Positions 20,640 through 49,221 of a DNA stretch of 64,000 nucleotides are shown here, one piece after another (the first letter of the stretch is position 1; every line of letters begins with the position of its first letter). Source of the stretch: Ceratotherium simum simum (Eukaryota; Chordata; Mammalia; Perissodactyla; Rhinocerotidae); the NCBI RefSeq assembly GCF_000283155.1, contig NW_004454166.1, forward strand, positions 10,592,731 through 10,656,730, written 5' to 3'. The position numbers and the translations under genes were made by a program. The notes below the pieces were generated by a model. That model made no database searches and had not been told where the DNA came from. It was given only the letters and a program-made list of their open reading frames with translations.

Positions 20640-21713
20640 ATTTTCGACAAAGGTGCTAAGAACATACAATGGAGAAAGGAAAGTCTCTTCAATAAATGGT
20701 GTTAGGAAAACTGGACAGCCACATGCAAAAGAATGAAAGTGGACCATCTGCTATCGCCATTCACAAAAATTAACTCAAAATGACCTGAAGGTGAGACCTG
20801 AAACAATAAAACTCATAGAAGAAAATATAGGCAACACACTATTTGACATTGGTCATAAAGGAATCTTTTCTGATGACATGCCTACCCAGACTAGGGAAAC
20901 TAAAGAAAAAATAAACAAGTGGGACTTTATCAGGTTAAAGAGCTTCTATAAGACAAACGAAACCAGAATCAAGATGAACAGACAACCCACCAGCTGGGAG
21001 AGAATATTTGTGAAACATACATCTGACAAGGGATTGATCTCCATAATATATAAAGAACTCACACAACTGAAAACAAAAAAACAAACAACCCGATCAAAAA
21101 ATGGGCAGAGGAAATGAACAGACACTTTTCCAAAGAAGATATACAGATGGCCAATAGGCACATGAAAGGATGTTCAACATCACTAATCATCAGGGAAATG
21201 CAAATCAAAACAACACTAAGATACCACCTCAGACCTGTTAGAATGGCTATAATCACCAAGACAAAAAACAAGTGTTGGAGAGGATATGGAGAAACAGGAA
21301 CCCTCATACACAGCTGGTGGGAATGCAAACTGGTGCAGCCTCTATGGAAAACGGTATGGAGATTCCTCAAAGACTTAAAAATAGAGATGCCCTATGACCC
21401 AGCCATCCCATTACTGGGAATCTATCCAATGAATCTGAAATCAACAATCCAAAGAGGCTTATGCACCCCTATGTTCATTGCAGCATTATTCACCATAGCC
21501 AAGAAGTGGAAGCAACCTAAGTGTCCCTCGACTGATGATTGGATTAAGAAAATGTGGTATATATATACAATGGAATACTACTCAGCCATAAAAAAAGACA
21601 AAATCGTCCCATTTGCAACAACATGCATGGGCCTGGAGCATATTATGTTAAGTGAAATAAGCCAGAAAGAGAAAGACAAACACTGTATGATCTCACTCAT
21701 ATGTGGAATATAA
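20640..21713 (+). pseudogene. L1 ORF2 C-terminal part, frameshifted
   Basis: L1 ORF2 encodes the endonuclease/reverse transcriptase that moves L1 RNA into new sites; this is its last third, lacking the endonuclease and reverse transcriptase domains. Two long frames follow each other: 20791-21117 (about 108 codons, with NKWDFIRLKSFY) and 21114-21713 (about 199 codons, with [34 protein letters not shown] and YYSAIKKD). They join through a frameshift in the A-rich stretch near 21070-21090; the downstream frame actually begins upstream of its first ATG with NPIKKWAEE. The copy cannot be functional because it lacks the N-terminal two thirds. It is the longest open frame of the window and easily mistaken for a gene. 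Confidence 0.9.
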
Positions 21714-45239: not shown

Positions 45240-45630
45240 TCTAGGCTCCAGCACAGCATATTTTTTAAAAAATGTTGCAGTTGGTTTGTTTTTAGGATTC
45301 TCAAAGGCTTCCTTGGCCATGGTCCTTTTCATCTGCTATTTCCTCTGGATGGAATGCTTCCACCTTGGTCATCACCCTCCTTTTAATGTGTTAACTCCTA
45401 CTTCTTCATGTTTCAGGTCATATTTAATTTCTTGAAGAATTTTCCAAGACCTTCCTGACTAAGTCAACTCTCTTTGTCATATGCATTCATAGCACTGCAT
45501 TCCTTTCTTTTGGAGGATTTATCAGTGTATAATCATGATTTATAATGCAATTATAAGCAACTATTAATTAGTGCAATTATTTTATTTATGTCTATTTCCC
45601 CCACTAATCTGCTAGCTCACCCAAAAATTA
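45240..45630 (+). repeat. L2 LINE 3' part, broken by the MULE
   Basis: Sense L2: 'ctctggatggaatgcttcca', 'ccaagaccttcctgactaag', 'atagcactgcattcctttct', 'tatgtctatttcccccacta'. It stops abruptly at 45630, exactly where the MULE begins, before the last ~100 bp of the usual L2 3' end. No clear continuation was found right of the MULE. Confidence 0.65.
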
Positions 45631-45633
45631 GGG

Positions 45634-45720
45634 GGCATTTGGTCCTGTCCAAAATGTCCATGGAGACATTTGGTCCCTACCAAATGGTCCTTGATATTTG
45701 GTCCTGCAAAAACATCCACG
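45634..45720 (-). repeat. MULE left terminal inverted repeat
   Basis: About one and a half units of the subterminal repeat in inverse orientation: unit one 45634-45669, then 'ttggtccctaccaaatggtc', 'cttgatatttggtcctgc' and a third start at about 45708. On the reverse strand it reads as the right-end units do (CCAAATATCAAGGACC). Confidence 0.85.
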
Positions 45721-45899
45721 TGTAGAAAACGTCTCTGGGTTCAAATAGCCCATAACGTTTATTTACACTTTGGTTTACGGGATTAATTCATAAAAAATAC
45801 TATCATTTTATTGGCCCAATGATTGTGTTATGGCTGTATGGCCAATAATAACCCTTCGTGACTCCATAGCCTAGCTGGTAATGGCACATGGGGTTAGGT

Positions 45900-46500
45900 A
45901 GATGGGCGGCGGTTGGAAATCTTGCAAAAGAGCAGTATTTATATTAACTATGCTTACCAAGGAAAAGTCCTACAGTTAGAGAAATGCACAGAGGATGACA
46001 TGTTGAGGATGGGATCTCCAATGCATGGGGCAATTGGTTGGATGTGACTGGGTCGTTCAATAAGGGCGGAGTTTGGAAGGAGGAGCTTGGTCAAGCCACA
46101 ATGGAAAAGGGGCTGCGAATGTGTTGACATAAACGCTTTACAAAGATTCTCTCTTATTGGGGAGGAGTGAGAACGGATGTGGCTCACCTACCACATAGTT
46201 GTCGGGTGTAATAGCCACCATGAGGGGAATACCGGGCATAGTTAACCCCATAAAACTATCCCATCGCCCAGGGTCAAAAGGCAATGTTTCCCTTGAATCA
46301 ATGTCCTGTAGAGGTACAATCGCGGTAGACCGCGAGAAGTGTCTGCCGCAATTTGGAGAGGTTTTAGTGGGTGTGGCTCCCGCACTTACTGCTCATTGGA
46401 GTGGGCCACCATGCCTTTCGCTGGTGCTGATCCACCCTGCCCAACCGGGTGTTAAATCCATGAGACATTAGTAAGGTTTCACCTAACAGTAAACCAGCGA
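45900..46500 (+). promoter_or_regulatory. CpG-rich leader of the MULE, possible promoter
   Basis: CpG dinucleotides are much denser here than in any neighbouring sequence: I count about a dozen in 46180-46500 (for example around ATCGCGGTAGACCGCGAG at 46319-46336). It lies directly upstream of the transposase frame. No TATA box or initiator is obvious. The promoter role is inferred from position and CpG density only. The 90-codon frame 46199-46471 has no recognised domain and is probably chance. Confidence 0.45.
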
Positions 46501-46576
46501 CCATTGGTCAGACGGCTGCACAAGAAAAAAAAACCTTTTTCTGTTGCTTGGCTTATGTGAAAATTTACAGCGAAAT

Positions 46577-46917
46577 ATGGCAGAAATAGTACACTCAAAA
46601 AAGGAAACGTCAATCCTATTTTATAATGGTTTTTGTTACCATTTCCATTTCTTTAATGGAGATAGGAGTAAAAGGTATTGGCGCTGTGAAGAGAAGAGAA
46701 TCTGCAATGCCCAATGTACAACTAGTCAGGATTTGGATGACATTATAGTCGTTCAAGATGGGACAGGAAAACATCAGCACAGCGTTGGTGTTGAAGGGGA
46801 GGTAAGGAAAACCGTGAGTGTGTTAAATGACACTCAGAAGAAGAACCAAATACAGCACCGTCACAGATACTTCCAAGAACTCTCCATGGTATTCATGATG
46901 AAGAGGTCCTGTTAATG
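46577..46917 (+). pseudogene. MULE transposase, N-terminal FLYWCH zinc-finger part
   Basis: FLYWCH fingers bind DNA and, in animal MULEs, precede the transposase core, where they probably recognise the transposon ends. The frame is open from a TTG at 46544, but the first ATG at 46577 has A at -3 and G at +4 and begins MAEIVHSKKETS, so I take that start. Counting from 46544, residues 25-80 carry the finger: aromatic LFYNGFCYHFHFF, then YWRC (Cys48), RIC and QC (Cys54, Cys58), and KHQH (His77, His79). The frame ends at a stop near 46912. The codons from about 46870 are already shifted, since the neighbouring frame there reads LHGIHDEEVLLMLPK and leads straight into the next part. No close similarity to host FLYWCH1 is claimed; that gene has several fingers and no transposase. 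Confidence 0.85.
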
Positions 46918-47256
46918 CTACCAAAAAGAAACTCATTAAAGAGGCAAATAAGTAGAATTCGAAACAGACATCAACCTCCAAACCCAACTTCGTTGCATGG
47001 AATTGAAATTTCAGAGGAGGATAAAGTGACCAGAGATAGAAAACCATTTCTTATTCATGATTCTGGTGCTCAAGATGACAAAAGAATTCTTATTTGCACA
47101 ACTTACGACAATATTCGATATTTAAGTGCTGATACATTATTCAGTGATGGCACTTTCAAGATGACACCAACATGGTATACTCAGTTATTTACTGTGCACA
47201 GTGTAGTATTGAGTTATGCTATGTCATTGATTTATGTATTAACAAAGATAAGGTGA
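46870..47256 (+). pseudogene. MULE transposase core, first half (DGTFK)
   Basis: It continues the FLYWCH part after a frameshift. The readable frame runs from before 46915 (ATG in frame, but probably internal) to a stop at 47254. It holds the linker RQISRIRNRHQPPNPTS, then KPFLIHDSG, RILICTTYDNIRYL and LFSDGTFKMTPTWYTQLFTV. The Asp of SDGTFK (codon at 47145-47147) is the first catalytic acid of the RNase H-like MULE core, followed by the usual P-x-W/F-x-QLFT-H pattern. The stop at 47254 follows a second frameshift near 47245: the next frame reads DKVRRHLQIYNMRKYL, as expected for the segment after YVLT. Confidence 0.88.
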
Positions 47257-47960
47257 GACGACACTTACAGATATATAATATGAGAAAGTATTTGCATTTG
47301 CACAGGAAAGAAATCTAGACATTAACCCCGCATTGTGCATGATGGATTTCAAGACTGCCAATATGAATGTGATTAAACTACTCCTACCAAATGCACAAGT
47401 AAAAGGATGCTTGTTTCACTTGTCACCATCACTGTGCTGAAAAAGATCTTCTTTGGGTCTAACACAAAAATATATGACAACGGAAGGTAATACCCATAAG
47501 TGTGCATCCATGTTGTTTGGACTTCTATTTAGTGCCTTTGGAAGATGTAATTGAAACTTTTGAGTAGAGAATGCAGAGAATGCAGAAGAAAATTTAGATG
47601 ACCTAATGGGTTATATTGAAAGAGTGTATGTCTGTGGAAGGCATGGCAGAGGCAGAAGACCAGCTCCAAGATTTCCACTAGAAACTTGGAACGGTAATAC
47701 ATCAGTACTGAATGACGATCACGGGACAAACAACACAGTGGGAGACTGGCGTAGCAAATTTCAAAAGCTGATGGTAGTGCATCATCCTGTAATTTGGAGA
47801 TTATTGAAGTGTTAAAAGACCAATAGCAAGGCAATAAACCAGGTTCTTGGTGGTCACGCTCAAATAAGGCCACCAACTTCATGACGATACCAACATAATC
47901 AAATTCGTATAACAGAAATTAACAGGTGTCATGAATATAAAGCCAACAATCAGGTCGATA
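47257..47960 (+). pseudogene. MULE transposase core, second half and C-terminus, broken
   Basis: Several short frames together follow the MULE order. Around 47321-47430: ALCMMDFKTANMNVIKLL, with the second catalytic Asp candidate at 47344-47346, then VKGCLFHL, the Cys and His of the typical C-x(n)-H pair. Around 47447-47560: GLTQKYMTTEG and, in another frame, LVPLEDVIETFE. From 47570 to 47815 one frame gives GYIERVYVCGRHGRGRRPAP, FPLETWNG, then GTNNTVGDW (TNN at 47726-47734) and VVHHPVIWRLL. At least three frameshifts and several stops lie between. The third catalytic acid cannot be assigned with confidence. The combination of GRR.P.FP.E.WN and TNN..W is characteristic of animal MULE transposases. 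Confidence 0.85.
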
Positions 47961-48136
47961 GATACTCGAGAGCAATTTTCATCAAATTAAGAGTGACTCA
48001 GCCGGACTCCATGATGAAGAAGAACAAGAATAAATGTGAAATACAAAATTCATCATGAATTACAATAAAAATAATATAAATAAAATTTTAGCCAAGTTAA
48101 AAGTTATATGTTTTATTTAATAAATCATGGACAAAA

Positions 48137-48450
48137 ATGTCTCCATGGATGTTTTGGACAGAACCAAATATCAAAGACCTTTAGCATGGACCAAATGTCT
48201 CCATGGATGTTTTGGACAGAACTAAATATCAAAGACCTATTAGTATGGACCAAATATCTCGATGGACATTTTAGACAGGACCAAATTTTAAGGAGTTTTT
48301 TCTTGGATGTTTTGGATAGGACCAAATATCAAGGACCTTTTGGCGTGAACCAAATGTCTCCATGGATGTTTTGGACAGGACCAAATATCAAGGACCTTTT
48401 GGCATGGACCAAATGTCTCCATGGATAGTCTGGACAGGATTAAATGTCCT
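48137..48450 (+). repeat. MULE subterminal tandem repeats and right inverted end
   Basis: About six copies of a 58-59 bp unit, starting at 48137, 48195, 48254, about 48300 (copy 3 has lost ~13 bp), 48354 and 48413. Each has ATGTCTCCATGGATGTTTTG, then GGACAGGACCAAATATCAAG and GACCTTTTGGCATGGACC. The last copy is shortened and forms the element end. Arrays of transposase-binding repeats near the ends are common in MULEs; binding here is inferred. The frames at 48108-48428 arise from the repeat. Confidence 0.92.
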
Positions 48451-48946
48451 ACAAGGAACAGAAAATATAAAACAAATAAACACAATCCAAACAATAGAAG
48501 ACATAAATCAAACCTCAAAGAAGCATGAAAAGCAGAAAGCACAAATGCAGATGGTTGAAGAACGAGCATATGTTTCAGTCATGACATTCTACATACATAG
48601 GTTAAGCTGCCTCATTTAAAGTTGAAGACTCTTAAAGTAAACCTACGTGTTGAACCTACAACATTGAACAATATGCTGCTGCATTCAAGGAACTGCTTAA
48701 CATGTATGAAATAAGAATAAAATAATTGGATGGTGAAGATATAGCAAAAAAATGTAGAGAAAACAAAAGCAGAACCAGTGATAATTTCAGACCATACAGA
48801 ATTAAGTTTTTGTAGAGAATCTTGTGTAAGAAAGAAGATAAATGAACAAAGTGATTATTTTAGGATACTTTAACCCATCTCTCTAAGTCGTAGGTCTATC
48901 ACAGAAGAAAAAAAGATAGTGATAATTTAAATAACGTAAGTATTAA
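48451..48946. other. A-rich DNA right of the MULE, unassigned
   Basis: No L2 continuation and no other repeat recognised. Coding potential not evident. Confidence 0.4.
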
Positions 48947-48957
48947 GATTAATTATA

Positions 48958-49221
48958 GAGCCAGCCCAGGTGGTCTAGTGGTTAAAGTTTGGCGCTCTCC
49001 ACTTCAGCGGCCCAGGTTTGCTTCCTGGTAGTGGAACCACACCACCCATCTGTCAGTTGCCATGCTGTGGCGGTGGCTCACATAAAACTAGAATGACATA
49101 TGGCTAGAATATATAGCCATGTACTGGGGCTTTGGTGAGGAAAAAAAACAAAAAGAGGAAGATTGGTAGCTGATGTTAGCTCAGGGCGAATCATTCCCTG
49201 CAAAAAAAATTTTAAAAAAAC
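48958..49221 (+). mobile_element. ERE-family SINE with tRNA-Glu-like head
   Basis: The head GCCCAGGTGGTCTAGTGGTT and TTGGCGCTCTCCACTTCAGC resemble tRNA-Glu, whereas the tail (GATGTTAGCTCAGGGC and 'aaaaagaggaagattgg') is the ERE tail. The box B-like part is decayed. GATTAATTATA at 48947-48957 recurs with one change at 49222-49232, a target duplication. Confidence 0.88.

Follow-up and report, generated by a model that had tools for sequence, protein, structure and literature searches.

A 64,000-nucleotide stretch of the Ceratotherium simum simum genome (contig NW_004454166.1, positions 10,592,731 to 10,656,730; hereafter the window) contains a dead DNA transposon of the Mutator superfamily, that is, a Mutator-like element (MULE). 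It occupies 45626..48456 on the + strand (2831 bp), with limits set by comparison among its copies, and carries the broken remains of an autonomous-type transposase gene. The first-pass annotation of this DNA had proposed a fossil autonomous MULE in a mammal, and protein domains, catalytic motifs, ends, family-wide target duplications and scattered copies sharing those ends confirm it. We interpret the element as a self-coding MULE of a whipworm-like lineage that multiplied in one burst, is now dead, and reached the mammal most likely by horizontal transfer (probability about 0.8).

Transposase gene and element ends

The gene (46577..48058, + strand) can be read through to about 486 residues, with four frameshifts and four stop codons relative to protein P0001 of Trichuris suis. 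Seven frame pieces were scanned with Pfam. A FLYWCH zinc finger, the presumed DNA-binding domain, is present at 46589..46780 (PF04500, 6.6e-11; residues 33-96 of piece 46493-46915), consistent with the Phantom group of MULEs (group 20), for which the consulted part of a 2019 review gives None, FLYWCH or SWIM (PMC6446971). The MULE domain (PF10551) was matched on a single piece, 47279-47440, at 4.6e-5 and 24.2 bits, under the curated cut-off of 27.6 bits, and on none of the remaining pieces. The joined read-through clears both cut-offs (FLYWCH, 3.3e-10; MULE, 3.1e-7 and 31.2 bits). Across the genome, PF10551 has eight matches above the cut-off, every one within copies of this family (20 of 20 candidates scored).

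All four motifs named in the first-pass annotation are located between 47140 and 47749, in the order it gave and on + strand pieces. Alignment with relatives places the presumed catalytic D, D and E regions at FSDGTFK (47140..47160), MMDFKTANMN (47339..47368) and RFPLETWN (47669..47692, with GRGRRPAP just ahead); these roles are assigned by analogy with the D/D/E triad described for Muta1 in the portion of PMC5225508 consulted. The three positions are present in the window copy and aligned with the relatives, as expected of MULE catalytic motifs, and the domain was counted as having the RNase-H-like fold of IS256/Mutator-related transposases. KGCLFHL (47402..47422) is a conserved C..H motif close to the C-terminal end of the MULE match, and TNNTVGDW (47726..47749) aligns as a conserved TNN.VEGWH-type motif. 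The internal stretch ahead of the gene (45707..46576, + strand) aligns in other copies and has no recognised domain, with no Pfam match in its frame pieces 45898-46047 and 46199-46471.

The inverted repeat ends and subterminal array that had been described are present. The left end (45626..45706, + strand) consists of an 8-bp terminal motif, AATTAGGG (GATTAGCA in other copies), and an inverted-repeat arm with three GACATTTGGTCC-type units. The right end (48126..48456, strand not assigned) is a tandem array of the same units with a period of about 59 bp (48126-48286 and 48304-48439), followed by the inverted-repeat arm and the terminal CTACAAGG. The two arms, 45633-45706 and 48376-48449, are 74 nt long and 88% complementary. 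Across copies the family has GATTAGCA at one end and CCTTGCAG at the other, each then followed by GACATTTGGTCC. The element thus has the terminal inverted repeats of a MULE; its outermost 8 bp are unlike between the two ends, yet conserved among copies. The span first given to the element, 45631..48450, was slightly short: the element is real, and comparison with other copies moves its ends outward to 45626-48456, where each inverted-repeat end has 8 further conserved bases.

Ends and target sites were compared in 39 sequences, namely the window copy, 25 long copies and 13 short loci. Both ends are present in 36 of them, as the proposed test of dispersed copies sharing the same ends had anticipated, and the three without an end were dropped. 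The 8-bp sequences flanking the 36 have a mean identity of 0.653, compared with 0.275 in permuted pairs, and at least six of eight positions match in 18 of the 36, compared with 0.4% of permuted pairs. Family-wide, these are target duplications within the 8-11 bp range of MULEs.

Copies, burst and decay

The searched assembly comprises 2.451 Gb in 339 contigs. The whole element used as a query returned 223 matching pieces, itself among them (40 of 320 candidates scored), and a whipworm relative used as a query located coding remains at at least 25 places beyond the window copy, the long copies L009-L033 (98 matches; 83 of 136 candidates scored). We compared 24 of these 25 long copies and the window copy, omitting L029, which has a large insertion. 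Kimura two-parameter (K2P) distances over the 300 pairs average 0.198 (range, 0.154 to 0.280) and describe a star without deep subgroups. In a frame-aware alignment every one of the 25 rows is broken by at least one stop or frameshift, and differences are nearly equal at codon positions 1, 2 and 3 (0.182, 0.154 and 0.168; 21 of 25 rows). From the star radiation and the even codon-position differences, it follows that the copies are the product of one burst and that each copy has since decayed neutrally by roughly 10%. At the mammalian average of 2.2e-9 substitutions per site per year, the burst would date to roughly 45 million years ago, or to about 66 million years at an assumed slower rate of 1.5e-9.

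A tRNA-type short interspersed element (SINE), which we take to be an ERE of perissodactyls, lies at window positions 48958-49210, and eight more partial matches to it occur within the window. With this SINE as the query, matches, some of only 42 bases, were found inside 8 of the 25 fetched long copies, indicating that those eight predate the last activity of the SINE. The nearest relative of the window copy is L013 (G000:C11:10510589-10513841), situated on the same contig about 125 kb away (K2P 0.173; support, 87/79), as a local hop would give.

The family also includes short array-only loci. Twelve of the 13 fetched have both ends and lengths of 218-475 bp, and a 355-bp locus used as a query returned 364 candidates, of which all 40 scored match, the query included. 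The element would have been a cut-and-paste transposon coding for its own transposase, in which the FLYWCH finger presumably bound the repeated units of the ends and the RNase-H-like D-D-E domain would have excised the element and inserted it elsewhere at sites with an 8-bp stagger. During the burst, the many array-only derivatives were presumably mobilised in trans; the copies then died and decayed neutrally.

Whipworm relatives and the route into the mammal

In the searched protein database, the only strong relatives of the read-through are four proteins of T. suis (P0001-P0004), the best matching at 54% identity over 97% of its length (E = 1.5e-166); the next match has an E value of 2.8e-13. 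Like the mammalian element, P0001 combines MULE and FLYWCH domains and is collinear with the read-through; unlike the compared mammal copies, all of which are broken, the whipworm proteins come from predicted open frames. Some have oddities of their own: in P0001 the presumed catalytic Glu is replaced by Gln, P0003 carries DDTFK, and P0002 is a fusion with other sequence. A profile search (34 matches) added Trichuris trichiura, thrips, whitefly, rotifer, comb jelly and unnamed proteins. A third search began from the mammal copies; of its 68 matches, seven are named, all from T. suis. The majority state of 21 copies is 0.687 identical to P0001 and 0.664 to P0003, compared with 0.522 and 0.469 for the whipworm proteins P0006 and P0008, 0.438 for whitefly and 0.411 for thrips. 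Realignment of 22 copies under a non-whipworm guide, P0007, keeps P0001 at 0.689 and leaves P0007 itself at 0.475, so the choice of guide does not produce the whipworm affinity.

In three phylogenetic trees, with named insects and unnamed relatives as references, the copies and the whipworm proteins form one clade (support 100/100, 100/100 and 100/99), which unnamed fragments join in two of the three (two fragments in the first). This grouping is at odds with the host tree and places the closest relatives in a distant host, a pattern expected of a transferred element, subject to database coverage. A mammalian element that close to a whipworm element points to horizontal transfer, and horizontal acquisition of a whipworm-type MULE is likely on this sequence comparison, in which the whipworm side is represented by proteins and the mammal copies by one genome. 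Horizontal acquisition had been raised earlier as a possibility; the tree backs it, with whipworm proteins as the closest named relatives. P0006 (T. suis) and P0008 (T. trichiura) represent a FLYWCH-MULE protein common to both species in which, judged by eye, GCLFS stands in place of GCLFH and the TNN motif is changed, and it may perhaps be a domesticated transposase.

Several observations weigh against this reading of the element and its origin. An unnamed protein, P0036, splits the branch beneath the clade and shortens it from 0.36 and 0.37 to 0.26. A position of the copies inside whipworm diversity has a support of 68/25, and with p values of 0.354 and 0.487 in the approximately unbiased test, the order among the copies, P0001-P0004 and P0006/P0008 is a trichotomy. 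Eukaryotes are represented patchily in the protein database, so the sample may lack a closer relative. Foldseek gives low TM-scores against ISCth4 (0.32/0.40). Half of the copies with both ends (18 of 36) match at no more than five of the eight target-duplication positions; they include the window copy (5/8, eroded), for which scans preceding the definition of the element ends gave no convincing target duplication.

The trichotomy would also be expected if a third, unsampled source, such as another parasite, an insect or a virus, had given the element to both whipworm and mammal, and in line with this the whipworms are the sole close named relatives sampled and many matches are unnamed. Nothing stands directly against such a source, and we regard it as a serious contender that nevertheless falls well short of an even chance; the presence in whipworms of at least two diverged lineages of the clade (P0001-P0004 and P0006/P0008) suggests long residence there, and a scan of viral contigs found no relative. 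Vertical inheritance of an ordinary MULE from early animals, with loss in most vertebrates and chance survival of the whipworm likeness, is unlikely. MULEs are found in several animal groups according to passages of PMC6446971, and the eukaryote sample is thin; against this stand the contrast in majority-state identity between P0001 and the two named insects, the single star of copies without an older subfamily, and the path length between P0001 and the root of the copies, which at about 0.40 changes per site (summed) does not exceed the 0.44 between P0006 and P0008, a weak yardstick because both proteins are altered in conserved motifs and may evolve fast.

Parasite DNA in a mammalian assembly has been described for the shrew, as excerpts of PMC6542046 indicate. 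Here, contamination is contradicted by copies spread over many contigs, 3.8 to 66 Mb in size, by breaks in all 25 compared copies and by the internal SINE matches in eight, and at the assembly level we give it virtually no weight. A domesticated host gene with processed pseudogenes could be imagined, as FLYWCH genes exist in mammals and a FLYWCH1 structure is listed in the Foldseek result. It is contradicted by the conserved terminal repeats and target duplications, by the absence of an intact frame in any of the 25 copies and by the confinement of all genomic PF10551 matches to this family, and its probability is likewise negligible.

Horizontal transfer of a whipworm-like lineage remains the preferred reading. 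A set of 56 unnamed database fragments (P0022, P0024 and most of P0039-P0094) also falls within this family: over segments selected for similarity, the fragments and the copies have an identical majority residue in 266 of 276 columns. The fragments are more decayed than the copies (identity to the majority state, 0.738 vs 0.821 over filtered segments), and on these comparisons they resemble further insertions carried by other hosts. We suggest, tentatively and at slightly less than even odds, that in the Paleogene a whipworm MULE passed from a gut nematode to early perissodactyl-like mammals, and perhaps to more than one mammal lineage independently. In favor of several invasions, the best-scoring match of each fragment to the 25 compared copies never exceeds 82%, despite the near-identical majority residues; against them, hosts that split soon after the burst would give the same picture.

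A second family and known Mutator-like elements

Weak matches of the genome search with the whipworm relative led to a second MULE-like family, comprising 16 loci (L047-L062) with elements of about 0.85 kb and different ends (e.g., L050:1217-2042). The Pfam MULE model did not pick it out, and its putative assignment comes from pieces of another transposase that are 24-46% identical to P0001. One of its elements used as a query gave 807 candidates, with 40 of 40 scored matching, the query included, and the mean K2P of 11 copies is 0.229. No full-length parent was seen, and no search aimed at one was made. Elsewhere in the window, long frames at 20737-21713 resemble what is presumably a LINE-1 ORF2 remnant.

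Ricksha of placental mammals is nonautonomous and older, and the shallow divergence of the present family (about 10% per copy) argues against a partnership between the two, if Ricksha is as old as supposed. A report of Phantom in the horse is said to be that of Marquez and Pritham in 2010. The horse report is known here through the 2019 review alone; in the sections consulted, the review cites Ricksha as one of the MuDR entries that Repbase has for mammals, states that the horse report gave a FLYWCH alignment only and that no MULE transposase was found there, casts doubt on that report, finds no such transposase in nine Repbase entries from vertebrates, and raises the question of whether vertebrates truly lack MULEs (PMC6446971). 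The rhinoceros element resembles the Phantom MULEs, which are FLYWCH-bearing elements of animals, and differs from the horse case in that a MULE transposase is found together with ends, target duplications and copies. Muta1 of Aedes aegypti similarly has a FLYWCH domain, a D-D-E triad and subterminal tandem repeats; it encodes 504 residues, makes target duplications of 8 or 9 bp and has more than 300 nonautonomous derivatives. Unlike the present family, with its period of about 59 bp, unequal ends and dead compared copies, Muta1 is active and has 145-bp ends and 12-bp repeats (PMC5225508, in the part consulted). RTE1_Sar and AviRTE are likewise transposable elements common to parasitic nematodes and vertebrates, as described in excerpts of PMC6542046, but they are retrotransposons, whereas the rhinoceros element belongs to the Mutator superfamily of DNA transposons.

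Among the matches listed, the titles and abstract openings of Creative Commons-licensed papers report no MULE common to whipworms and mammals, and as far as the literature was checked this is a new family of a known kind. With a near-complete broken transposase, ends, target duplications and copies, one mammal answers the question on vertebrate MULEs posed in the consulted part of the 2019 review (PMC6446971). The whipworm affinity makes the transfer of a DNA transposon between parasite and host directly testable, with genome records existing on both sides. If true, an origin from a gut nematode would mean that a Mutator DNA transposon had passed between parasite and host, and would prove that MULEs worked in mammalian germ lines.
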